Origin: a virus
Reading direction: 5' to 3' (one strand)
Length of the DNA: 39,402 bases
IMG/VR virus record: IMGVR_UViG_3300037119_011606
Location: 1 to 39,402 of that record
A program made the translations under genes and the position numbers. The notes beneath the pieces were generated by a model that made no database searches, was not told where the DNA came from, and was given only the letters and a program-made list of their open reading frames with translations. Below, one piece after another: positions 607 through 11,874 of this stretch (positions within the stretch are counted from its first letter, which is position 1; each line of letters opens with the position of its first letter).

Positions 607-831
607 TTACTTGGGGATGTCTAATTCCCCACCGTGCTCTTTAACAAACTCGATCAACCTACGCATGTATTTCAGTTGGCTGTTGTCTGACATGAACGTG
701 TGGATTACTTGACTCAAGAAGTTTCCACAACTATTACACAACCAGACTTTGTGGTAGTCGGCTGGACCATACCTAATCTGACTGGTAGCACCTTCATTCT
801 CACAACGTTGACAAATGTATGACCTACTCAT
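607..831 (-). CDS. Small zinc-ribbon protein
   Basis: A 74-residue protein with two CxxC pairs, CQRC near residue 7 and CNSC near residue 32, the layout of a zinc ribbon. The C-terminal half is a helical tail. An in-frame start six codons upstream exists, but the ATG used here overlaps the polymerase stop codon as ATGA, the coupling seen across this genome. It is co-transcribed with the DNA polymerase and may bind nucleic acid or a replication protein. That role is inferred from context only. Confidence 0.75.
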   Translation of the reverse strand: MSRSYICQRCENEGATSQIRYGPADYHKVWLCNSCGNFLSQVIHTFMSDNSQLKYMRRLIEFVKEHGGELDIPK

Positions 832-2219
832 TTTGGTATATGCCCCCATGACTGCTCACTCATCGCAACCCCGTAGCCTATTGGCACCTTCAACGGACAG
901 CAATGCTCAAACACTTCCCCGCAGTAATATAGGAAGTCTTCAAGTACCGCTTTCGGTCCCTCGGCCAGTAACTCATCATGTACCAGGATCAACAACTCTA
1001 CCCCGTACTTTCTCCAATACGACTCCCACATGTCATGTATCTCAGCCACGGCCAACTTCAATATCCCGGCCGCGAATGACTGGATGTGGAAGTTAGCGAT
1101 CCTACGCTTGCCCTGACTGATAATCCATGTATGTACACTTCTCATCTCTGGTACGTAGGTGAACCGGCCTAACGCATCCCAGACCATATTCGTCCTGACA
1201 GCCCGCCTACCCTGTAGCTTGCTACCTTCCAACACCTCCGGATACACCCCGTACCACTTCTGAATGACCCATTCACACTTCGGCTCCGTCCAGTAGTCCT
1301 TATCGCCACCGCTGGACGCAATAAGTGTGGCCAGTCCCGGAGGTGTGATTTCGTACACGATACCAAAGTTGACGTTCTTACATGGCGACCGCTGATCGTT
1401 ACGGAACTGGAGTACCATTGAGCACTCCGCACAATCACACTTCGGTGGATGTAACTTAGTGTTGCTGATAGCCCTATATAGTTGGTCACGATCCCGCTGG
1501 AATACTTCAATAGCTGTCTCGGTGTGTAGGTCACCCTTGGCCCACAACACCTCCATCATCTTACTGACGTTCCGCTCACTGGCCAGCACACGTAGTTCAA
1601 TCTGACTCATGTCTATTGAACCTATCCAGTTCCCCGGCCGTGGTACAAACGCCTTCCGGATCTCCTTACCTAGTGCCGTCCGCACTGGTATATTTTGTTG
1701 GTTGGGGTTCTTACTCGCCAACCTCCCCGTACTCGTTCTGGTGGGTAGTAACTCAGTGTGTAGCCTATCGGTGGATGGATTCACCAGCCGTATTAGTGAG
1801 GTGGTGTAAGTCGAACGTAACTTAGACCGTTCCCGGTAGTCAATAATAATCGGGATAACCTCATGTTCGTTACGTATTACTTCCAGTACGTCACCGTCCA
1901 CTTGCTCCCGTTTACCGGAGTCAGTCAGCTTGATCTTGTGCTTAGTTCGTATACCTAACTTAGCTGGACTAAACAGTAACTCAGCCACCTTATCCGGGGA
2001 GTTGATATCAGTCTCAAACCCGGTAATGATGTTAGCAGCTTCGTTTAACTGCTCCATCTCGGTAGTCAACCGTGACTTCAACCTAATCAGGTGGTCCTTA
2101 TCCAGGCCCATCCCGGTTTCCATCATGGTACTGATGGCTGGAAGGATGCCCATGTCCAGCCGCTTCACATTAGCAGGACACGGGCTATCAACCAGACGGA
2201 CTCCGTTGTACAGGCGCAT
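828..2219 (-). CDS. polA: DNA polymerase I family A, polymerase domain only
   Basis: A 463-residue family A polymerase made of thumb, palm and fingers, without exonuclease domains. Visible motifs: TGRLASKNPNQQNIP (164-178), motif A DMSQIELR (203-210) with the first metal-binding Asp, the O-helix RSPCKNVNFGIVYE (277-290) with Arg, Lys, Phe and Tyr in the Pol I positions, KRRIANF (371-377), and motif C HDE (414-416). Two oddities: an insertion between motif A and the O-helix carries CDCAEC (261-266), and the usual Gly after the O-helix Tyr is Glu. The missing 3'-5' exonuclease lies in a separate upstream gene, fused to a uracil-DNA glycosylase. It replicates the phage DNA. ATG lies 1 nt after the preceding TGA stop. 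Confidence 0.96.
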   Translation of the reverse strand: MRLYNGVRLVDSPCPANVKRLDMGILPAISTMMETGMGLDKDHLIRLKSRLTTEMEQLNEAANIITGFETDINSPDKVAELLFSPAKLGIRTKHKIKLTDSGKREQVDGDVLEVIRNEHEVIPIIIDYRERSKLRSTYTTSLIRLVNPSTDRLHTELLPTRTSTGRLASKNPNQQNIPVRTALGKEIRKAFVPRPGNWIGSIDMSQIELRVLASERNVSKMMEVLWAKGDLHTETAIEVFQRDRDQLYRAISNTKLHPPKCDCAECSMVLQFRNDQRSPCKNVNFGIVYEITPPGLATLIASSGGDKDYWTEPKCEWVIQKWYGVYPEVLEGSKLQGRRAVRTNMVWDALGRFTYVPEMRSVHTWIISQGKRRIANFHIQSFAAGILKLAVAEIHDMWESYWRKYGVELLILVHDELLAEGPKAVLEDFLYYCGEVFEHCCPLKVPIGYGVAMSEQSWGHIPK

Positions 2220-2220
2220 A

Positions 2221-2454
2221 TCAGTTGGGAAGACTGATGTCTACTTTCACGCCTTCTAATATGTACTTGCGGTTAGGTAGGTCATCAAAGGTAGTGACTT
2301 CCACAGTACTAATGAATACCCCCTGAATTGATAGTCCGGTTTGTTCCGTGAACTTTTCGGTTGCTATTAGAAGGGCTGAAGTAATGAAATCTTCTGCTTC
2401 CTTCTTGGCTGCTTTCAACTTTAGTACAAACTCTTTTGCTTGTTCGTCGGTCAT
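2221..2454 (-). CDS. Small hypothetical protein between the exonuclease and polymerase genes
   Basis: A 77-residue protein of unknown function. The N-terminal 40 residues are charged and probably helical (DEQAKEFVLKLKAAKKEAED); the C-terminal half is probably beta-rich. The start ATG overlaps the preceding stop as ATGA, preceded by a GGGGAG ribosome-binding site, and the stop is 1 nt before the polymerase ATG. This tight packing supports a real gene. Nothing in the sequence gives a catalytic role. Confidence 0.75.
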   Translation of the reverse strand: MTDEQAKEFVLKLKAAKKEAEDFITSALLIATEKFTEQTGLSIQGVFISTVEVTTFDDLPNRKYILEGVKVDISLPN

Positions 2455-2627
2455 ACCAAGTCTCCCCTATCCAACAGAATCAACCACTCAACAAAGACAG
2501 CCGAAGGTGGTAGTAAGTCTTGCTCAGCCAATGTAACTACTTGTTCGTTAGTCAATTGGCACTCCTCTTGTAATGACTTTAGGCGTGCTTTGACTTGCTT
2601 ACGGCTCATCTCGTGCTGGTTAGCCAT
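2451..2627 (-). CDS. Small helical hypothetical protein (58 aa)
   Basis: A short gene that fills the only gap between its neighbours. It begins with ATG overlapping the upstream TAA stop (TAATG) and ends with a TGA overlapping the downstream ATG (ATGA). The product starts MANQHEMSRKQVKARLKSLQ and is a basic-then-acidic helix followed by EQDLLPPSAVFVEWLILLDR. The reading frame is open throughout and both junctions match the genome's style, so I consider it real. Function unknown. Confidence 0.7.
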   Translation of the reverse strand: MANQHEMSRKQVKARLKSLQEECQLTNEQVVTLAEQDLLPPSAVFVEWLILLDRGDLV

Positions 2628-2866
2628 TACCCCTCCAGTAACTTCACACCAGGACTCAAGTTGTGAAATATTGGTTCCGGGATCGGTACAACATCATACT
2701 GCTCGAACTGTCCGCACCAACCTGTAACACCGTCTGTTTCCGGCCACGCTATATCCTTGTGAGTTGGGAACACCGTTACGGTTGGTGGGTTCAACCTACA
2801 CTCACCCTTACCTTTTGGTGCTGACACTGGACTCCAGTTACTACAGTTGTTACAACTACGCTGCAT
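2627..2866 (-). CDS. Cys-rich small phage protein
   Basis: A 79-residue protein with CNNC (5-8), GEC (about 23) and GWCGQFE (about 50), a four-Cys pattern spaced by Pro- and Thr-rich segments. This layout is common in small phage proteins thought to bind zinc or an Fe-S cluster. A strong GAGGAGG ribosome-binding site precedes the ATG, and the gene overlaps the end of the UDG-exonuclease gene by 11 nt. Metal binding is inferred from the Cys spacing; the cellular role is unknown. Confidence 0.75.
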   Translation of the reverse strand: MQRSCNNCSNWSPVSAPKGKGECRLNPPTVTVFPTHKDIAWPETDGVTGWCGQFEQYDVVPIPEPIFHNLSPGVKLLEG

Positions 2867-4244
2867 ACTTTTTCATCCTCCTCAAGACGTCCTTACTCAA
2901 CTTAGTTAGTAACGGCCGCAGTCTCAACGTAGCGTCAGCGTCTCTACACGCGTAGGGGATCACCAAGTTACGTGGTACCTGACCGATGTTAGGCCGTGGC
3001 ATCGGCCCATACTTACGAATTGCCGGTAACACGATCTCATCCGGCCACGACTCCCACCGCTCCATAACTATCTGACTTACCTTACCGGGGTCAGCCGTAC
3101 CCACAACGCACTTGTCCAGGTCACCTAGTGCCCGCTTCACATACGTATTCAGCGACCATGCCCGCTTGGGCCAGCCGTCTGGTTTAGGCCACTCATCACC
3201 GGCCAACTCATACAGGTAGTCGATAGCTTCCGACTGTGCATACGGCCGTACTAAGTCGTCAAAGTCTTGCATTTCCATACCGGCCAACCTGTACGCTAGG
3301 ACCTTCAACCCCAGTCTGAAGAGACCCAGGTTATACGCTCGGGTCATGGTGTCATCCACCCTAGACCAATCAATGTGTATGCCTATCTTCCGTAGTACCC
3401 CCAGGTCAGCTTCAGGGTTATGGAATAGGAACTGTTCCCGCCACAACCCTACATACCTAACAAACTCACTTACTAACTCCTTGTTATTGGCATCTACCAT
3501 GTAGCCAGTCCCAGGCTGACATGAGTAGCTCCAGCAATAAGGAACCTTCTGGAAGTTAGTATTGCGATTCCGTATGTACTCGGTATCAATAGCCAGCGGC
3601 CGACGAAACTCCCCGGCCAGTGTCCGCTTCATGTCGGCTATGTTGTGTATCTCTCGGTAGTCAGTGTTGGGGTATTCATCCCTGACCCATCCCACCTCAC
3701 CTTTCAATACGTGCTTCAAATGATCGAAGTCTTCACCCAACGGCCGCATGTACTTGTAGTCATGCATCCCGGCCGCAGGGTGGAACATCGGTATGACCGT
3801 TACGAAGTGGCCGTAGAAGTCCACGTTGCGAGGTATGCCGTGGTGAACGTCCAGGTCGATCCCAGGTACCAGTGAGCACGCGGTTGCACCCATCAACACC
3901 ACGTACTTGGGCTTGATATGCCGCATCTCATCCTTGAGGTGCCAGTCACTACAAGACTGAATCAGCTTGTCACCTGGAGTCTTGTTATTCCTTGGCCTAC
4001 ACTTAGCCACGTTGGTTATGTAGATGTACTCCCGGTGCGTACCGGCCGCTGGAAGGTAGCCTTCATTCAACTGCTTGCCAGCCTTCCCCACAAACGGACG
4101 GCCCTTGTCGTCCTCATCGGCCCCAGGTGCCTCACCGATGAACACCAGATCACCATCGGCATACAACCCCATGTCAGGGGGTACGACGTGGGTGTCACCC
4201 GGACACTCCGGACAGCGCGAGGGATTGAACCAAGGACAGTTCAT
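2856..4244 (-). CDS. Uracil-DNA glycosylase (family 4) fused to a DnaQ-like 3'-5' exonuclease
   Basis: A 462-residue two-domain protein. Residues 1-175 match family-4 UDGs: GEAPGADEDDKGRPFVGKAG (37-56), HPAA (155-158), and four Cys at 11, 14, 82 and 98, whose spacing (C-x2-C, then C-x15-C) fits the Fe-S ligands of that family. Residues 205-455 match the proofreading domain of Pol I: ExoI DTE (220-222), ExoII HNPEAD (275-280) and ExoIII YACRD (431-435). It would remove uracil and proofread for the polymerase encoded three genes downstream. Glycosylase domains joined to phage family A polymerases are known (SPO1-type, from memory); here the join is to the exonuclease and the polymerase is separate. 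The ATG lies only 4 nt after a palindrome copy and has no clear Shine-Dalgarno site. Confidence 0.92.
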   Translation of the reverse strand: MNCPWFNPSRCPECPGDTHVVPPDMGLYADGDLVFIGEAPGADEDDKGRPFVGKAGKQLNEGYLPAAGTHREYIYITNVAKCRPRNNKTPGDKLIQSCSDWHLKDEMRHIKPKYVVLMGATACSLVPGIDLDVHHGIPRNVDFYGHFVTVIPMFHPAAGMHDYKYMRPLGEDFDHLKHVLKGEVGWVRDEYPNTDYREIHNIADMKRTLAGEFRRPLAIDTEYIRNRNTNFQKVPYCWSYSCQPGTGYMVDANNKELVSEFVRYVGLWREQFLFHNPEADLGVLRKIGIHIDWSRVDDTMTRAYNLGLFRLGLKVLAYRLAGMEMQDFDDLVRPYAQSEAIDYLYELAGDEWPKPDGWPKRAWSLNTYVKRALGDLDKCVVGTADPGKVSQIVMERWESWPDEIVLPAIRKYGPMPRPNIGQVPRNLVIPYACRDADATLRLRPLLTKLSKDVLRRMKKYAA

Positions 4245-4789: not shown

Positions 4790-5013
4790 TCTTGGCTCCC
4801 GTACCGCTTAATTATGTCTGTGCGTCCATCACCGTAAGTAACGGATTCACCCACCAGTACCCTCTTGTAAGTCAAGCAAGCCTCACAAAAGAATACATCA
4901 TAGTACTTAGACTCTGGATGAAATCCACCGTCTTTGTCTACGTCTTGCCGCAAGTACACGTACTTGTGTTCATGTGGCGTCTGGTCAACCGTCACCTTAA
5001 CTTTACCCACCAT
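4786..5013 (-). CDS. Small possible zinc-binding protein
   Basis: A 75-residue protein with HEH (14-16) and CEAC (about 43-46), a possible His/Cys metal site, between beta-strand-like segments. The ATG overlaps the TAA stop of the ERCC4 nuclease gene (TAATG), with an AGGAGG site just upstream. Together with its neighbours it forms a run of small, coupled genes between the nuclease and the UDG gene. No family recognised. Confidence 0.7.
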   Translation of the reverse strand: MVGKVKVTVDQTPHEHKYVYLRQDVDKDGGFHPESKYYDVFFCEACLTYKRVLVGESVTYGDGRTDIIKRYGSQE

Positions 5014-5786
5014 TACTTCCTCCTTTTCCTCACGGCCATATAGATCGCATCGGCCAACCCTTTACCAATCCCGTCCACCTCTTGTAACTTCTCCCTGCTG
5101 GCCAGTATCATCTCGCTGATTGTGTCGAAGTGCTGCGCTAGGTTACCGGCTTTCTTCCAGCCCACACCAGGGAACCGGCTGGCTATGTATTGCATAAGAT
5201 CAGGCTCTTGCCTAAACGTATCGGTGATGGATTCCCCAGTACAGAACTTATGTAAGCTGTGGTGCTCCTCGTTAGGCTTCTGGCTATGCTTCCACAAGTT
5301 CCTAAGTGCCCTTGCCGACTCTTCCTTGGTCCTGGTCCGTATCAGCTTGACCCCGGCCACCCGCTGGATAGTCCACAGGAACCCTTCCAACTGGTCAAAC
5401 GTATACGGCCGTACTGTCTTACCAGTCCTGGTCTTGAATCCGAAGTCAACCCACCCTTGTTTCCGCCTGACGTAATCCCATCCCCAGTGCTGTATCTTGC
5501 CGTCCTCATCGCTCCTGTAGATGGCTTCAAACAGTAGGTAAGTCTCAGCCTTGTATAGCTTCAACATCCCAGGCAACTGAAGGTCAGCATACCGGGCATC
5601 AGTCATGCACGTTATCAGGTCACTCAGGGTCTTACGTTCCACGCCCAACATACAGGCCCCACTACGGCCGTAGCCTTCCCAGGCGAAGTCCCCAAACGCC
5701 AAGGTATCCAGGTGGGTGGGTACCCCTAACTTGGCCAACTCGGGTTCTAGTTCCTTAGATCCGGTGCGGTAGTCTACAATAATCAT
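5013..5786 (-). CDS. ERCC4/XPF-type structure-specific nuclease with C-terminal helix-hairpin-helix
   Basis: A 257-residue nuclease. The N-terminal half has the ERCC4 fold signature: VDYR (4-7), GDF (32-34) and VERKTLSDL (49-57), matching the GDxnERKxxxD active site. The C-terminal segment (about 205-250) has two helix-hairpin-helix motifs, PGVGWKKAGNLAQHF and VDGIGKGLADAIY, which bind DNA backbone. It would cut branched or flapped DNA during recombination or replication. I chose the ATG at 5786 over an in-frame TTG at 5798 because GGGAG lies 6 nt upstream of it. Confidence 0.92.
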   Translation of the reverse strand: MIIVDYRTGSKELEPELAKLGVPTHLDTLAFGDFAWEGYGRSGACMLGVERKTLSDLITCMTDARYADLQLPGMLKLYKAETYLLFEAIYRSDEDGKIQHWGWDYVRRKQGWVDFGFKTRTGKTVRPYTFDQLEGFLWTIQRVAGVKLIRTRTKEESARALRNLWKHSQKPNEEHHSLHKFCTGESITDTFRQEPDLMQYIASRFPGVGWKKAGNLAQHFDTISEMILASREKLQEVDGIGKGLADAIYMAVRKRRK

Positions 5787-5802
5787 CAATGCTCCCAAGA
5801 TG

Positions 5803-5815: not shown

Positions 5816-6058
5816 TTCTTTGAATCTAATCAAGTAGGGCAATAACGGATACTCTCCCAATTCCGGTACTTTTGGAATCCGGCTGTCATAGGATCGCACC
5901 CTAACCACCAGTACGTCCCTGTTGAAGTCATGCTTTACCTCACAGATGGTAAGGTCAGTGGGCATGGGTGACCCATCGGCCATAACCAAGTGACAGAATC
6001 CTAATAGTATTTGCAGTAATCCCGTATAGGGGATCATAATAATACATCCACGCTTCAT
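5804..6058 (-). CDS. Hypothetical protein with hydrophobic N-terminus
   Basis: An 84-residue protein starting MKRGCIIMIPYTGLLQILLG; the first 30 residues are hydrophobic but include Pro and His, so a membrane segment is uncertain. The rest looks like a beta-rich globular domain (DLTICEVKHDFNRDVLVVRV). I chose the ATG that overlaps the HNH stop as ATGA, with GGGAGG upstream; an in-frame start six codons earlier is less likely. The gene ends inside a palindrome copy. Function unknown. Confidence 0.7.
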   Translation of the reverse strand: MKRGCIIMIPYTGLLQILLGFCHLVMADGSPMPTDLTICEVKHDFNRDVLVVRVRSYDSRIPKVPELGEYPLLPYLIRFKEFTK

Positions 6059-6405
6059 ATATCCTCCCGTACCCACTCTGGCGCGTCCGCAATCAATTGG
6101 TTTAACTTACGTCTAGTCATAAACCGTCCAGTATCCGGGTCTATCGGCTGAGTATCAGAACTAGTCCCATCGTGCAACTCAGCCTGTATCATCAGTAGGT
6201 TATTCGGACAGTTGTGTACCCCGCAGAAGTCCACATGATGAACGTGGAAGCCGGGGGGTATACCCGGCCCATAAAAACTCCACTCCCTTGTTAGTAAGTC
6301 AACTATCATTCGGTGCTCTACCCAATCCCTATAAGGACCTCTCCTTTTGACTCTCTTGTATCCGTTAGTTAGTGTGAATCCTACCCCACTACCCTTTCTT
6401 GCCAC
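6055..6405 (-). CDS. HNH endonuclease, homing type
   Basis: A 116-residue protein with a compact HNH motif: EHRMIVDLL (about 31-39), then PGFHVHHVDF (51-60) with the paired His, then HNCPNNLLMI (64-73) with the catalytic Asn. This is the form found in phage HNH proteins, often free-standing homing endonucleases. The start is GTG inside the end of the previous gene (17-nt overlap) with AAGGA upstream. It sits between unrelated small genes, as expected of an inserted mobile gene. Confidence 0.88.
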   Translation of the reverse strand: MARKGSGVGFTLTNGYKRVKRRGPYRDWVEHRMIVDLLTREWSFYGPGIPPGFHVHHVDFCGVHNCPNNLLMIQAELHDGTSSDTQPIDPDTGRFMTRRKLNQLIADAPEWVREDI

Positions 6406-6814
6406 CGTCCGTCCTTTTAGACCAGCCGAATCCAGGTACGATACCCTTCAGTACCCACAAATGGCGCATGTTGGCAACGTTAACTATGTCGCTGGTGGGT
6501 GGGTACACCTCCACGGCCCATTGCTCCTGATACCCCAATTGATCCTTGATCCCCTGTAACTCATCCCAGGAAACCTTATCCGGGAAGTCACCGGCCGCGT
6601 TAATTTCCGTTCGGCATATACTCAACCGTGTAACTTGTACGTTCTCCACATACACCTGGACCATGAACCGGTTGTTACGCCAGCACGAATCCGGTACACG
6701 TACACCCTTGGGCCAGTCGTCATCTGACATAAGCTCAAACTCATCCCCCAGACTGGCGTTGTACAGCCTAACGTTAGCCCGCCCGCGTCTGGTGTTCAAC
6801 CTTGGCAATTTCAT
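6389..6814 (-). CDS. Conserved phage hypothetical protein (DUF7694-like)
   Basis: A 141-residue protein ending in VEVYPPTSDIVNVANMRHLW, a C-terminal signature I associate with a phage DUF (possibly DUF7694). No catalytic residues are evident. Two in-frame ATGs exist. The second, at 6814, overlaps the upstream TGA as ATGA and has AGAGGA 6 nt ahead, so I prefer it. It is downstream of the Sak4-like ATPase in the recombination block. Function unknown. Confidence 0.78.
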   Translation of the reverse strand: MKLPRLNTRRGRANVRLYNASLGDEFELMSDDDWPKGVRVPDSCWRNNRFMVQVYVENVQVTRLSICRTEINAAGDFPDKVSWDELQGIKDQLGYQEQWAVEVYPPTSDIVNVANMRHLWVLKGIVPGFGWSKRTDGGKKG

Positions 6815-7644
6815 AACCATTCCTCTATTCTGGTGTTCGGGTACACCAAACAGCCCAGACTTGGAAATGTCGCATCCTCACCCCAGAACTCCATACCTGT
6901 AAGCTCGGGGTTAGCCGTACAGTTAAGGACCGTGAAGCCAAACTCCATGCCGCCGATTGCATTACCCTTGGAATCGGTCACCGGCCTACTGTGGTGACGT
7001 ATGTTGACCCGGAAGATGTGTTGAGTGTGTTGGAACCCTTCCCGCTCATACGCTCCCGTCCAAGCCCTTCTACTCTTCACCTCTCCCTTACTGACATACT
7101 CTGTGTCGGCCCACACCTGACCCAACCTATGACTACAAATGAAGTGGATACCGTGGTTTTGTGGAACCATGAGTAAGTTAGTCATGTACGCGTTGACGAC
7201 ATCGTAACTGGATTGAGCCACACCCTTGACCGCTCCTTGTTCAGCGATCCTGAGTATTCGCCAGACGGCATCCCCCGTGTCCATAGCCAGCGTGCGAATG
7301 GCCCCAGACTTACATAGGTTATTGACTCCTGTGTATATCTGTCCCCAGGCTTCCTCACACATCGGCCTCAACGCTTCAATATTCCGGGTAGAGGGTAGCT
7401 TGACGTCCAAGAAGAATAGATCCTTTCGTTTCTTCTCGACAATCATTTTTTCTTCTACATCGTCCGTCCCCATGTCAATGTTGATATGACCAACAGGACC
7501 AGGGGTATCCCGCAGCATGAAGTCTGTCTTACCCGAACGTGGTAGGCCCTCGCTACCAATCCACAGCCTACGTTGTCCCGCTTCCCGTACCCGCCCCGGC
7601 CGGAAGCCGCTTTCTTCGATGAGTGATAACTGTTGTGGTGTCAT
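6811..7644 (-). CDS. Sak4-like RecA-fold ATPase (single-strand annealing/recombination)
   Basis: A 277-residue P-loop ATPase with Walker A GLPRSGKT (33-40), an early IDMGTDD loop, and a Walker B-like strand TLAMDTGDAVW near residue 118. The compact RecA core and small-phage context match the Sak4 group of phage recombinases. Candidate SSB and nuclease genes lie just upstream, so the three could form one recombination set. The ATG is 2 nt after the preceding stop and has only a weak, distant Shine-Dalgarno site. A DnaB- or RepA-like ATPase is a less likely alternative. Confidence 0.8.
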   Translation of the reverse strand: MTPQQLSLIEESGFRPGRVREAGQRRLWIGSEGLPRSGKTDFMLRDTPGPVGHINIDMGTDDVEEKMIVEKKRKDLFFLDVKLPSTRNIEALRPMCEEAWGQIYTGVNNLCKSGAIRTLAMDTGDAVWRILRIAEQGAVKGVAQSSYDVVNAYMTNLLMVPQNHGIHFICSHRLGQVWADTEYVSKGEVKSRRAWTGAYEREGFQHTQHIFRVNIRHHSRPVTDSKGNAIGGMEFGFTVLNCTANPELTGMEFWGEDATFPSLGCLVYPNTRIEEWL

Positions 7645-7893: not shown

Positions 7894-8556
7894 TTAATCT
7901 ACGTCATCAATGAGGTATTGATCCTCATCTACTCCCAAGTGCCTGTTGTTGACCAACATATCCCAGTTTTCATCAATCTCAAATTGAGAAAATTCAAACT
8001 CGAATATGCAATATAGTGGCTTCTTAGTCTCCCAATCCTTTCCCCAACTCCCCCGCATGAACAGAACGTGAAGGGTACACCAACGGGTTTCAAGCGATTT
8101 GCAATAACCCATCATTTGACTTCTCCACATCCAGAATCTCTTATCCAGAAATCCCAGACTAGGGTCAGCCAGTATCTTACGTGCTGACTTGTGGGTTGTC
8201 TTAGCTTCAACCAGGGTTACACCCCCGAAGTCTTTAGGCGGCTTACGTGCCCAAACCTTGGTGTACTCCCCGGCCGTAGTATCCTTGATCCCGTCGTATG
8301 ACTGTTTGATCCCGTCTAACTCCACTTCCGGAGGATGGTACAGGACCTCCGGGTGGTACTTACGAAAGACGTAATCCTCAAACGCTAGACCTATTAGGAC
8401 AAGTAACTTGTCCATGATGTCTTCACCCGCGTACTTGGTATCAAGGAACCCAGAACGTAGGGCTATACTCCGAATGACTGACGACTGGTGTATACCTCCT
8501 GAACGTCTCGGGTCACGGGTCAACTCTAACTCATACGGTATTTGGATTACGTTCAT
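7894..8556 (-). CDS. PD-(D/E)XK nuclease, Cas4/YqaJ-like
   Basis: A 220-residue nuclease. The motif is read as ELDGIKQSYDGIKDTT (about 78-93, supplying the Asp) followed by VTLVEAKTTHK (the E-x-K strand, about 113-123), with an early IGLAFEDYV helix that supplies the usual upstream Glu. This fits exonucleases of the PD-(D/E)XK superfamily used in phage recombination. It follows the candidate SSB gene and precedes a Sak4-like ATPase, a plausible exonuclease/annealase pairing. ATG is preceded by a GGAAG site and by a palindrome copy and terminator, so it may be expressed separately from the SSB gene. Confidence 0.82.
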   Translation of the reverse strand: MNVIQIPYELELTRDPRRSGGIHQSSVIRSIALRSGFLDTKYAGEDIMDKLLVLIGLAFEDYVFRKYHPEVLYHPPEVELDGIKQSYDGIKDTTAGEYTKVWARKPPKDFGGVTLVEAKTTHKSARKILADPSLGFLDKRFWMWRSQMMGYCKSLETRWCTLHVLFMRGSWGKDWETKKPLYCIFEFEFSQFEIDENWDMLVNNRHLGVDEDQYLIDDVD

Positions 8557-8569
8557 GGACCGGCTTCCG

Positions 8570-8582
8570 TTTACTTAGTAAA
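8570..8582. repeat. Dispersed palindrome TTTACTWAGTAAA, copy 4
   Basis: Exact copy between the terminator at 8593-8616 and the ribosome-binding site of the nuclease gene. Confidence 0.95.
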
Positions 8583-8592
8583 TTTCCAATAG

Positions 8593-8616
8593 AAAAGGGG
8601 CCATGTTTCGGCCCCC
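8593..8616 (-). terminator. Rho-independent terminator after the SSB-like gene
   Basis: On the minus strand a GGGGCC/GGCCCC stem with a 7-nt loop is followed by TTTTCT. It lies downstream of the SSB-like gene stop and would limit readthrough into the nuclease gene. Confidence 0.8.
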
Positions 8617-8650
8617 TCTCTTCCCCGTACTGCGTCCGCTTCAGCCCCGG

Positions 8651-9646
8651 TTAGGACTTACCTTTGACGGCGTTAGGGCCGTCGATTCTCCAGCCGACGT
8701 TGTTGAGCAGTGCGCCCAACTTGTTCAGGTCCTTAACAGCCGCGATAACCGCCGTTTTTACCGAATCGTTCTGGTCGGCCACCGCTTTAGTTACGGCGCC
8801 CCGAATCAAGGCCAGCATAACGGAATCCTGGTCCTTACCCTTGGCCGTCATGATCTCATCAATCAAGTTAACGGCTAGGTCGTCGGCATCATCGGACCCT
8901 CCAGAGTCACCGCCATCAGACCCGCTGTCCGCTGCATGATCCACCGCTCTACCATTTGTCTTGCCACCAGCCGCCGCAGTGGTTGTGCGCTCGACTGCCT
9001 TGCCCGCCTTGATTTTCTTGTCATCGGCTAGGGTGCTGTGTTCGATGTCTTCCGGAACTACTACAGTCTGCTTGTCCATACGGCGACGTGCGGCCGTAGC
9101 CTTGGCATCCTCCGCACCGGCAAGTTTGGTGTTGGTTGTCTCCTCGGGAAGGTCAGGTGCATACGGGTCTTCCCGTAGTTTGACCACCGCGCCGTTGAGC
9201 CCGTACACGCCGTACTTGCACAACCGGTCAATATCGTAGCCGCAATTGAGGAGATTGGTAATGAAGATTGAAGCCTTGGACTCTTTCCAAAGCCCTTTTT
9301 TAGACGAACGCGGGTGCAAAATGACGAACGAACCGACGTTGGTTTTGGATACCGTTTCGTCATCCTCGGAGGGAACAAAGTTGACAGCTTCACCGGCCGA
9401 AAGCCATTGATCCCTTACGATCTGTTGGCCTTTGTCGTCCTTCGACTTGGTTTTGCCGTCGTCATCCAACTGCGTCATGTTCAGGTGCAGACAAGTGTTT
9501 TCCTTGGACCCAGGAAACGGCTTCCCGTCTTTGTCTTTCGCCTGATGAACAGCGTATTCGACCAAGTTCAAGAGGTAATACCCTGGTCGAAAACTGAAAC
9601 CGCCCCCGGTCATATTATCCGGGTGCATTAAATTCTGCTTTGCCAT
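8651..9646 (-). CDS. Putative single-stranded DNA-binding protein
   Basis: A 331-residue protein. The first 165 residues look like a beta-rich binding domain (NLVEYAVHQAKD, VGSFVILHPRS, GLNGAVVKL). A low-complexity linker follows, ending in an acidic/Gly stretch around 240-255 (DSGSDGGDSGGSDD). The C-terminal 75 residues are helical. Globular domain plus acidic flexible region suits a phage SSB, and it is the first protein of a strongly expressed unit with its own promoter region, terminator and AAGGAAAG site. It adjoins recombination nuclease and ATPase genes. The SSB call rests on architecture and context, not on a diagnostic motif. Confidence 0.6.
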   Translation of the reverse strand: MAKQNLMHPDNMTGGGFSFRPGYYLLNLVEYAVHQAKDKDGKPFPGSKENTCLHLNMTQLDDDGKTKSKDDKGQQIVRDQWLSAGEAVNFVPSEDDETVSKTNVGSFVILHPRSSKKGLWKESKASIFITNLLNCGYDIDRLCKYGVYGLNGAVVKLREDPYAPDLPEETTNTKLAGAEDAKATAARRRMDKQTVVVPEDIEHSTLADDKKIKAGKAVERTTTAAAGGKTNGRAVDHAADSGSDGGDSGGSDDADDLAVNLIDEIMTAKGKDQDSVMLALIRGAVTKAVADQNDSVKTAVIAAVKDLNKLGALLNNVGWRIDGPNAVKGKS

Positions 9647-9905: not shown

Positions 9906-10098
9906 TCTTACTTACCTCCTCAATCTTGACTTTATACTCCACTTGTTTCTCATCACATGCTACAACCACACCGGAAAAGTCATAACCGTCGATGTGAAAC
10001 TGCACCTCACAGCCCACAGCATCCAAGTCGATGATTCCATCCCCAGGGCTGAACGGTACCACACGTCCTTTGTACGTTTGGAAATCAATATAACTCAT
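9871..10098 (-). CDS. Small hypothetical protein after the helicase
   Basis: A 75-residue, probably beta-rich protein (YKGRVVPFSPGDGIIDLDAV, then EVQFHIDGYDFSGVVVACDE). It resembles a small barrel fold, but this cannot be confirmed by eye. The ATG overlaps the helicase TGA as ATGA, so it is translated with the helicase. Possible helicase accessory or expression modifier; unknown. Confidence 0.75.
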   Translation of the reverse strand: MSYIDFQTYKGRVVPFSPGDGIIDLDAVGCEVQFHIDGYDFSGVVVACDEKQVEYKVKIEEVSKSDKAGTRFASS

Positions 10099-11669
10099 TG
10101 CACGACCCTCGTAATTGGTTTAGGTAAGAAACTCATGGATTGATAACGATTGTGAAAGTCAGGAGTTGCAAGGTAGGAGTATCGACGCCAGAACCAAGAC
10201 ATGTTTTCATCCATGATGATCGTCTCGCACCTATCGGAGTGTTGACGTCTAGGTCTACCAGCCGCTTGGTCCATCAGTTGCATGGTGTGATGGGCCGTGT
10301 ACTCCCTATCAACACACTCGCGGGCTACTACGATAGGGTGGGAACGATCTGGGAAGGGTACCTTGGGTATAACCATGTACTCAGCTTCAGCGCCAGGGAA
10401 GTTATAACCAGTCGCCACCGACGGACTAATAAACGCATACGGTGCTGGCATCTTCTTGAACCGTTCTACGGCCGCGTCGATGTTGTCACCCTCCCGGTTG
10501 AACATCATCGTGCGCTGGAACTTAGACCGCTCCCGAATCATGTTAGTAAGTCGGTAGCTGTTACAGAAGATTAGGCCCTTGCGATCCTGCCTGACCCGTA
10601 GGAAGTTATCAATCCCCCGCACCATCTCGACATAGTCTTGCTCCTCAGATCCTTGTTTAATGTTGGCGATGGGTACATGGTACACAGGGGAGTTATCGGT
10701 GGGGAATGGAGAGGCATACTGGAAGAACTCCATTTCACTACCTTTCACGCCGCACATCCACATTGACTTAGGCCGGATACTGGCAGATAGGAAGGTGACC
10801 TTTGGTACCCCTTTGTACAACACCCGTTCGGCATAGGGTGCAATACGTATGGGGTCCAGGATGTAACCCTCATCGGTACCCTCAACCGTCCAGGAGTCCG
10901 GCCGCATCAACATCAAAGTGGCCAGTTTCTTGGAGAGGTTACTGTAGTGGTGGACGTTCTCAACCCACGACGTAGGAGGGTTTGGTGTGCGGCTTACCTT
11001 GGTCTCCCACTCTCTTAGTATTGAGTCACACGATGGCTTATGACGTCCAGCCCAGGCTTTCCACTCACTAAGGTCATTGTTGATAGTGGGCCAGCCCGAC
11101 TTCAACATCAACTTAACTTCATGCTTACTCAACCTAACCTGCATGGCGTCTGCAATCGCCCCGTAGACTTCATGACCCTCATCCAATATCAACCGGTCTA
11201 TCTGGCCAATCCCTACACCATACTGCTGTGCGGCAATTAAGTAAGCGTAGTTGGTGATGACTAAGTTACTACTCAACGCGGTAAAGTAGGCTGACGAACT
11301 AGCACAACCGGGAGTACCCACAAACATACACCGGCCGTGACTGCCTTTCTCACAAGTCCAGTCATCCAACCCACCGTCACATTGGTAGTTGGCTTTACCC
11401 ATGATGTTGACTAAGCCACTTTGGGCGAAGTCCCTCATGTACTGGTGTTGAAGTCCTTTAGTCCGGGTTGCTATTACTACCCGTTCCTTGGTGAGTCTTT
11501 GAAGGGCCACCGCGAACAATGACTTACCTATCCCGGTGGGTGCTGCTACTCCTTGGAATCTCTTCTCGCTATTGGCTACATCCAGTAGCATTGATTCCTG
11601 ACTGTCTCGCCATTCTGTAAACTGTCTTGGTAAACCTAATTCCAGTGGTGATGGAATCTTGTTATACAT
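10095..11669 (-). CDS. DinG/XPD-family SF2 helicase with an Fe-S cluster motif
   Basis: A 524-residue helicase. Walker A APTGIGKS lies near residue 43, the DEGH box near 163, and four Cys at about 97, 106, 114 and 122 sit between them, as in the Fe-S cluster domain of XPD and DinG. The second RecA domain shows VTFLSAS, GLIFCNSY, SPSVATGYNFPG and QAAGRPRR, the usual motifs III-VI. It should unwind DNA 5' to 3'. I chose ATG at 11669 (AAGGA just upstream) over a GTG one codon earlier. It overlaps the small HTH gene by 8 nt and is the main helicase visible in the genome. Confidence 0.93.
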   Translation of the reverse strand: MYNKIPSPLELGLPRQFTEWRDSQESMLLDVANSEKRFQGVAAPTGIGKSLFAVALQRLTKERVVIATRTKGLQHQYMRDFAQSGLVNIMGKANYQCDGGLDDWTCEKGSHGRCMFVGTPGCASSSAYFTALSSNLVITNYAYLIAAQQYGVGIGQIDRLILDEGHEVYGAIADAMQVRLSKHEVKLMLKSGWPTINNDLSEWKAWAGRHKPSCDSILREWETKVSRTPNPPTSWVENVHHYSNLSKKLATLMLMRPDSWTVEGTDEGYILDPIRIAPYAERVLYKGVPKVTFLSASIRPKSMWMCGVKGSEMEFFQYASPFPTDNSPVYHVPIANIKQGSEEQDYVEMVRGIDNFLRVRQDRKGLIFCNSYRLTNMIRERSKFQRTMMFNREGDNIDAAVERFKKMPAPYAFISPSVATGYNFPGAEAEYMVIPKVPFPDRSHPIVVARECVDREYTAHHTMQLMDQAAGRPRRQHSDRCETIIMDENMSWFWRRYSYLATPDFHNRYQSMSFLPKPITRVVQ

Positions 11670-11874
11670 CACTTTCCTTTCGCGCTACGATTCTCTGTGT
11701 TCTCCAAGGTGTATTATTCGTACCGGCTGGTGTTTCCACCGCTCTTTCCACACTATACATCTGGCGATTCATCCGGTTTATTAAAGTCTTTGCCGGAATG
11801 CCACTCAATTTAGCCAGCCCGTCTATCGTATAGTACTTCCCTTGGTACTTGTAATAGTGTTGGCGTGAAATCAT
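11662..11874 (-). CDS. Small helix-turn-helix protein
   Basis: A 70-residue protein whose core YYTIDGLAKLSGIPAKTLIN (15-34) followed by RMNRQMYSVERAVETP is the short helix-turn-helix found in many phage regulators and in homing-endonuclease DNA-binding regions. An upstream GTG in frame would place the promoter -10 box inside the gene, so I use the ATG at 11874. It has its own promoter and is followed by the helicase with an 8-nt overlap. It could regulate the replication operon and is one of two candidate binders of the dispersed palindrome. Confidence 0.8.
   Translation of the reverse strand: MISRQHYYKYQGKYYTIDGLAKLSGIPAKTLINRMNRQMYSVERAVETPAGTNNTPWRTQRIVARKESDV

Follow-up and report, generated by a model that had tools for sequence, protein, structure and literature searches.

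The window analysed here is a 39,402-nucleotide stretch of viral DNA (IMG/VR record IMGVR_UViG_3300037119_011606, positions 1 to 39,402). On its minus strand, a gene at 2856..4244 encodes a 462-aa protein that joins a uracil-DNA glycosylase (UDG) to a DEDDy 3'-5' exonuclease (UDG-exo), and a gene at 828..2219 encodes a 463-aa family A DNA polymerase with thumb, palm and fingers and without an exonuclease. Three small genes on the same strand lie between them: 2627..2866 (79 aa, cysteine-containing), which overlaps the end of the UDG-exo gene by 11 bases, 2451..2627 (58 aa), which shares a TAATG overlap with the first, and 2221..2454 (77 aa), which shares an ATGA overlap with the second. The ATG of the polymerase starts 1 base after the stop of the third small gene; neighbouring genes therefore overlap or abut from UDG-exo through to the polymerase.

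Conserved neighbours are found nearby, also on the minus strand. Those of the replication module are an ERCC4 (XPF-type) nuclease with helix-hairpin-helix (5013..5798; PF02732 6.7e-11, PF12826 1.1e-8; 110 matches in related loci) and a DNA helicase (10095..11672; phrog_2488 2.2e-52) with homologues in the related loci L098, L097, L099 and L103 at 1e-117 to 7e-101. The product of 6811..7644 has no family match and 87 matches in related loci; its P-loop-like N-terminus, judged by eye, and its position in relatives make it a probable Sak4/RecA-type ATPase. The product of 7894..8556, likewise with no family match and with 41 matches in related loci, is a probable PD-(D/E)XK nuclease, assigned by position only. 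An HNH gene lies at 6055-6405.

Within UDG-exo, the UDG domain spans residues about 3-185 (window 3690-4238, minus strand) and the exonuclease residues about 216-462 (window 2859-3599, minus strand). A Pfam domain search identifies PF03167 UDG at residues 30-163 (E 6.7e-25) and PF01612 DNA_pol_A_exo1 at residues 216-325 (E 2.3e-7), and no polymerase match in this protein. The four Fe-S cysteines of type 4 UDGs are present and aligned with relatives (C11, C14, C82 and C98), as are the active-site residues E44, F51, N78 and H155. The type 4 motifs GEAPGxxE, N and HPA appear as G37-E38, E44, N78 and H155-P156-A157, and profile matches to solved type 4 UDGs are strong (4zbx 1.2e-53, 1ui0 2.5e-52). 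By motifs and homology the product is thus a family-4 (type 4) UDG, with uracil excision as its predicted activity. In the exonuclease, residues D220, E222, D280, Y431 and D435 are present, and the alignment places the DEDDy motifs DxE at D220/E222, N..D at N276/D280 and YxxxD at Y431/D435. Its profile match to the Klenow exonuclease is about 1e-11; used alone as query, the exonuclease part has no match among annotated phages at E 0.01.

The polymerase has PF00476 DNA_pol_A as its sole Pfam match (E 1.6e-75). Motifs A (D203), B (R277/K281/Y289) and C (H414-D415-E416) are intact in the alignment, and the profile match to Taq is about 1e-139 (5o7t 1.2e-139). These motifs, together with homology to Taq, place the protein among family A DNA polymerases. 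The initial annotation had read a replicative polymerase split into a proofreading half with intact UDG, Fe-S and exonuclease motifs and a half with polymerase motifs only, and had suggested AlphaFold modelling of both proteins and a search for the same split in other phages. The two genes, the small genes between them and the conserved residues confirm this reading, and AlphaFold2 models both proteins with confidence (UDG-exo pLDDT 93.6, pTM 0.89; polymerase pLDDT 94.4, pTM 0.90). The folds of both proteins are assigned from sequence profiles and from the models' own confidence.

The free polymerase begins with an N-terminal cap, MRLYNGVRLVDSPCPANVKRLD (residues 1-22, window 2154..2219, minus strand), which is conserved in most of the split clade described below as RLYNGVRL(L/V)..PSPxNV..(I/L)D. 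Along its full length, the cap profile matches no proteins other than polymerases of that clade; fused relatives match only at the thumb end of the profile. Residues 1-30, which cover the cap, are modelled at pLDDT 89-97. We consider the cap a candidate docking element.

The two proteins match consecutive stretches of a single profile, phrog_17 (1445 positions), of which UDG-exo covers 482-830 and the polymerase 841-1233, indicating that one chain has been cut cleanly at the exo/pol joint. Fused enzymes carry the three domains in one chain; here they are divided between two genes that lie 636 bases apart. The fused form is ordinary in phages, both isolated and environmental, and the cut form less so; in most relatives of the window the enzyme is an uncut protein. 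Most likely, the enzyme derives from an undivided UDG-exo-pol chain of this common form.

The search for the same split returned nine relatives that form one clade with the window (SH-aLRT 98 in a quick tree with long branches), all cut at the exo/pol joint. Gene order and strand are identical in every member and none has the fused form. The polymerase-only tree alone does not recover this clade; an AU test on the polymerase does not reject a tree constrained to contain it (p-AU 0.71). One member, L144, is cut again into free UDG, exonuclease and polymerase. In L101 the halves lie 4.2 kb apart, showing that the two genes need not be closely linked. Beyond this clade, at least three or four lineages have acquired a similar cut. 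We left L055 out of the count of sure splits, as a single in-frame TAG separates its exonuclease and polymerase, and L182, whose exonuclease seems to be interrupted by an insertion, does not show the same cut. In L137 and L181 the short overlaps lie in a different frame and could be natural or an error. With either protein as a single-sequence query, viral_contigs gave no match, and the relatives in viral contigs were recovered by profile searches. In genome_contigs, almost all matches were confined to the UDG part and represent ordinary type 4 UDGs, with no evidence of a prophage.

The two halves co-diverge as tightly as the halves of one chain: the correlation of pairwise distances between UDG-exo and polymerase is 0.96 within the clade and 0.86 in fused enzymes. 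In close relatives, purifying selection acts on UDG-exo and polymerase alike, with dN/dS among L097, L099 and L100, a set that does not include the window itself, of 0.10-0.11 for UDG-exo and 0.08-0.11 for the polymerase. Substitutions at active-site residues of the UDG, exonuclease and polymerase are rare across the clade. The earlier suggestion that the two products act together is therefore strengthened by their joint inheritance through deep divergence and by the overlapping or abutting gene chain that encodes them. The coupling of UDG and proofreading did not arise with the split; fused relatives ordinarily have it too, for example PaBG (PMC7412058).

The initial annotation had also allowed the small proteins a place in the complex, and the tight series in which their genes overlap or abut both enzyme genes speaks for it. 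However, no homologue of any of the three was found in about 300 related loci. The gap of relatives holds quite different genes (cytosine methylase, HNH, MT-A70, Dam) or, as in L097 and L098, no gene at all, the UDG-exo and polymerase frames overlapping. The missing homologues and the empty gaps indicate that the small proteins probably do not belong to the enzyme and are passengers, not subunits; a complex containing one or more of them is very unlikely.

On the sequence evidence, we consider it probable that the locus encodes one family A replicase in two polypeptides, with UDG-exo acting in trans. An ancestral UDG-exo-pol chain would have been cut between exonuclease and thumb in the ancestor of the window's clade, and the gap would then have gathered varying passenger genes. 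UDG-exo and polymerase would be translated in coupled series and would come together by way of the former contact between exo and pol domains, helped by the new polymerase cap and the C-terminal helix of the exonuclease. Once docked on the polymerase, UDG-exo would act in trans on a 3' end that is mispaired or on uracil that has been incorporated. UDG-exo could also act alone in repair, which we counted against this reading. If the halves indeed work apart, the polymerase would lack proofreading and UDG-exo would be a separate repair enzyme for uracil and for frayed or damaged ends. The 4.2 kb separation in L101, the lack of a fused clade member and the further separation in L144 are in keeping with such independence, but we find it unlikely given the tight co-divergence, the fully conserved exonuclease active site, the constant gene order and strand, and the restriction of the polymerase cap to split enzymes. 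Moreover, the two chains of a split family B polymerase, gp43A and gp43B of Aeromonas phage 25, co-purify with polymerase activity (PMC2988022).

That the gene was recently broken by a frameshift, a mobile insertion or misassembly, leaving one half dead, is scarcely credible. Gaps of relatives do hold HNH and methylase genes, and the L103 HNH resembles the window HNH (3e-7). Insertion may account for the origin of the cut, but not for its present state. The cut is identical across a deep clade, dN/dS is low for both halves in close relatives, motifs are intact and each half has its own start. No group I intron was matched in Rfam in the window or in seven related loci. A recent frameshift in a once-single gene is excluded by the 636 bases and three overlapping or abutting genes between the halves and by the same cut throughout the clade. 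Since several virus lineages show this cut and pass it on stably, the locus is neither a broken gene nor a defect and most likely encodes a genuine two-part enzyme. Compatible with this two-subunit replicase, the UDG domain might, in the manner of the vaccinia UDG D4, be chiefly a DNA-binding or processivity part and not a glycosylase, as most relatives have it on their replicase and some fused ones have lost its Fe-S cysteines. We regard this as distinctly unlikely: E44, N78 and H155 do not vary across 46 sequences, those without the cysteines included, which points to retained catalysis. Extending the two-subunit replicase to all these lineages, we tentatively propose, at somewhat less than even chances, that UDG, exonuclease and polymerase form a modular set whose parts have separated more than once and remained separate (UDG-exo/pol, UDG/exo-pol, UDG/exo/pol). 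UDG-exo would then be a detachable fidelity subunit, comparable to Pol III epsilon but made of family A parts, and the polymerase would recognise it by a docking cap peculiar to the lineage.

Our literature searches turned up neither a UDG-exo subunit nor this repeated cutting. If the halves assemble, they would represent a Klenow-type enzyme that nature has severed repeatedly at one joint while the partner kept its catalytic residues, and ready-made material for studying the coupling of proofreading to synthesis. A family A polymerase could then be made with proofreading and uracil removal optional. In annotation, the halves can be named 'DNA polymerase' and 'uracil-DNA glycosylase' and so remain unlinked.

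The closest known systems are the fused enzymes of PaBG (gp205), Pseudomonas phages PMBT14 and Lebethron, Caudoviricetes sp. vir526 and the solved chain 9qhs, which have the same three domains in the same order and are homologous throughout (PMC7412058). Their polymerase often lies beside comparable nuclease and ATPase genes ('AAA domain' or Sak4), as in the window. Unlike these single polypeptides, the enzyme of the window is cut at the exo/pol joint and has a new polymerase N-terminal cap. The phiEco32-like phages (Kuravirus) encode a family A polymerase without exonuclease and, apart from it, a PF01612 3'-5' exonuclease (PMC9965538), an arrangement that the window shares. However, the phiEco32 exonuclease (185 aa) has no UDG, whereas in the window a UDG precedes the exonuclease. 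The phiEco32 genes lie about 8 kb apart, and their separation may have been another event than that in the window.

A UDG, D4, is part of the processivity factor of the vaccinia replicase. As is probable for the window, a UDG belongs to a viral replicase, but D4 is of another UDG family and is not fused to an exonuclease. The gp43A/gp43B polymerases of Aeromonas phages 25 and 44RR are phage replicases in two chains like the one proposed for the window, and in phage 25 the gap holds a homing endonuclease (PMC2988022); they are family B enzymes, unrelated to the PF00476 polymerase of the window and without UDG. Finally, ExnV1 (PDB 7r0t), a free soluble Pol-I-type 3'-5' exonuclease from a hot-spring virus metagenome, was taken by its authors for a truncated polymerase (PMC9629493). 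Like the exonuclease of the window it is a phage Pol I exonuclease domain set free, although without UDG, and the present clades suggest that such free domains can be genuine subunits.

The viral record, 39,402 bases in size, encodes its replicative polymerase in two minus-strand genes. The first (4244-2856) specifies UDG-exo, a 462-aa protein in which a family-4 uracil-DNA glycosylase (UDG) domain precedes a family-A-type 3'-5' exonuclease domain, while the second (2219-828) specifies pol, 463 aa of nothing but family-A polymerase. On the PHROG profile phrog_17 (1445 positions), UDG-exo occupies positions 482-830 and pol positions 841-1233. The two proteins therefore correspond to successive parts of a single chain that has been divided at the exo/pol joint, and together with the domain matches these positions bear out the split proposed in the initial annotation.

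Both halves retain their active sites. An alignment of 46 relatives shows no variation at UDG residues E44, N78 and H155 or at exonuclease residues D220, E222, D298, Y431 and D435, and almost none at D280; all four Fe-S cysteines are kept in the window, in agreement with the earlier reading of intact glycosylase and exonuclease motifs. Pol carries motifs A (D203), B (R277/K281/Y289) and C (H414-D415-E416). Structure prediction gave confident AlphaFold2 models of both proteins (pLDDT 93.6 for UDG-exo and 94.4 for pol). Sequence profiles matched solved type-4 UDGs (1.2e-53), the Klenow exonuclease (about 1e-11) and, for pol, Taq polymerase (about 1e-139); 9qhs, a 1142-aa chain of solved structure that bears the name 'Putative DNA-directed DNA polymerase I', was matched across UDG and exonuclease (8e-21). 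Separately, pol has a KCDCAEC-bearing insertion between motifs A and B (residues about 262-272; window 1403-1436, minus strand) that is missing in most relatives, and its motif B reads VYE in place of their YG.

A search for other phages with the same split found it repeatedly. The nearest relatives (viral loci L097-L104 and L149; 34-39% identity in the best segment, with most of UDG-exo covered) carry the identical cut wherever both genes lie on the contig. When UDG-exo and pol were concatenated for tree building, the window grouped with L097, L099, L100, L103, L104, L101, L149, L144 and L114 in one clade (SH-aLRT 98), all of whose members have the cut at the exo/pol joint. This clade was recovered from UDG-exo alone (support 89); a free search with pol alone did not recover it, and the constrained tree was as good or better (p-AU 0.71). 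The two-gene family-A replicase is thus real and inherited. Similar cuts occur in two further clades (L020, L022, L128 and L152; L120, L121 and L123; 100 each), in L186 and in the annotated phage MW202554 (L004). Parsimony on an 82-row tree counts seven changes between fused and split forms, three of them on the uncertain single contigs L055, L137 and L181.

Other breaks were also observed. L144 (4142-9890) has three open frames, for UDG (186 aa), exonuclease (364 aa) and polymerase (467 aa), and the UDG is detached alone in L043 with L154, L146 and L191. In L055 (6997-7010) a lone in-frame TAG lies precisely at the exonuclease/polymerase boundary with the frame unchanged; it may be a nonsense change, a sequencing error or a read-through codon. 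The L022 polymerase frame (7984-8702) ends near motif B (..EDKYHS*), followed by AT-rich sequence to the contig end, an arrangement resembling an intron or an insertion placed at a conserved site; Rfam gave no intron match there.

The one-chain UDG-exo-pol, about 780-1180 aa, is widespread, occurring both in phage isolates and in environmental phages (PMBT14, Lebethron, Microcystis phage Mel-JY34, Brevundimonas phage MaInes, vir526 and several Manatee Spring phages) and on many IMG/VR contigs, and has been described in phage PaBG (PMC7412058). Coupling of uracil removal to proofreading is therefore the usual state of the family and was not created by the split. In L021 (5878-9375), as in L129, L135 and L062, the polymerase domain is interrupted by a large insertion, whose ends in L021, located at motif A, resemble those of an intein (..DYC LAEGTG .. 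VYTHN SQIEMR).

Between UDG-exo and pol are three small genes. Small gene 1 shares 11 bases with the end of UDG-exo, small genes 2 and 3 start in TAATG and ATGA overlaps, respectively, and one base separates the stop of gene 3 from the pol ATG, a spacing typical of genes whose translation would be coupled. The suggestion that the small proteins may belong to the complex gained no support: about 300 related loci contain no homologues of them, and gap contents vary or are absent. The L097/L098 gap holds no gene and the frames of the halves overlap; elsewhere in the clade we found a C-5 cytosine methylase (L099), a DUF1599-like protein under the Pfam cut-off (L100), an HNH protein with one small protein (L103), several small genes each (L104, L149 and L114) and a 4.2-kb separation (L101). 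Outside it, gaps contain MT-A70 (L020), Dam (L022) or a small zinc-ribbon-like ORF (L004). The three small genes appear to be passengers. The L103 gap HNH protein resembles one in the window (6055-6405, minus strand; 3e-7), and mobile HNH genes may therefore have opened or widened the gap, a comparable origin having been considered for the split gp43 gene in Aeromonas phage 25 (PMC2988022).

UDG-exo and pol likely assemble and act in trans. Free polymerases of the clade start, ahead of the thumb, with a conserved cap that in most members reads RLYNGVRL(L/V)..PSPxNV..(I/L)D; full-length matches to a profile of this cap are limited to polymerases of the clade, fused relatives matching mainly its thumb end. 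The cap (pol residues 1-22, modeled with high confidence) and the single long C-terminal helix of UDG-exo (425-461 in the AlphaFold2 model) would provide the inter-subunit contacts. The L020/L152 group has no cap and is cut between '..EMEM' and 'MLPIVLEMM'. Comparison of L097, L099 and L100 gave dN/dS values of 0.10-0.11 (UDG-exo) and 0.08-0.11 (pol). Within the clade, the pairwise distances of UDG-exo and those of pol have a correlation of 0.96, indicating that the genes travel together, versus 0.86 for the same parts of fused enzymes, a descriptive comparison given non-independent pairs and two sets of unequal size.

The window and its split relatives share a replication module that runs from a helicase (10095-11672) through two conserved genes (7894-8556 and 6811-7644) and an ERCC4 nuclease (5013-5798, minus strand) to UDG-exo and pol. 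The nuclease, of XPF/MUS81 type with helix-hairpin-helix, adjoins the polymerase genes and has 110 matches in related viral loci. Elsewhere on the minus strand, a 783-aa protein (35070-37421) contains collagen repeats, gives a weak phage depolymerase C-terminal match and is probably a receptor-binding or tail protein, and a 192-aa protein (37952-38530) matches a PHROG family whose annotation is RNase E (2.6e-7).

In the open-access papers searched we found no description of a UDG-exo subunit separated from a family-A polymerase, nor of recurrence of the cut; a separate family-A polymerase and exonuclease are already known. PhiEco32-like phages encode the two separately (PMC9965538), and our domain check of phiEco32 itself found PF00476 only in phi32_53 and PF01612 in phi32_74 (185 aa), so that the exonuclease stands apart from the polymerase as in the window. 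The split gp43A/43B, which co-purify and are active (PMC2988022), likewise form a divided replicase, but of family B whereas the window's is of family A.
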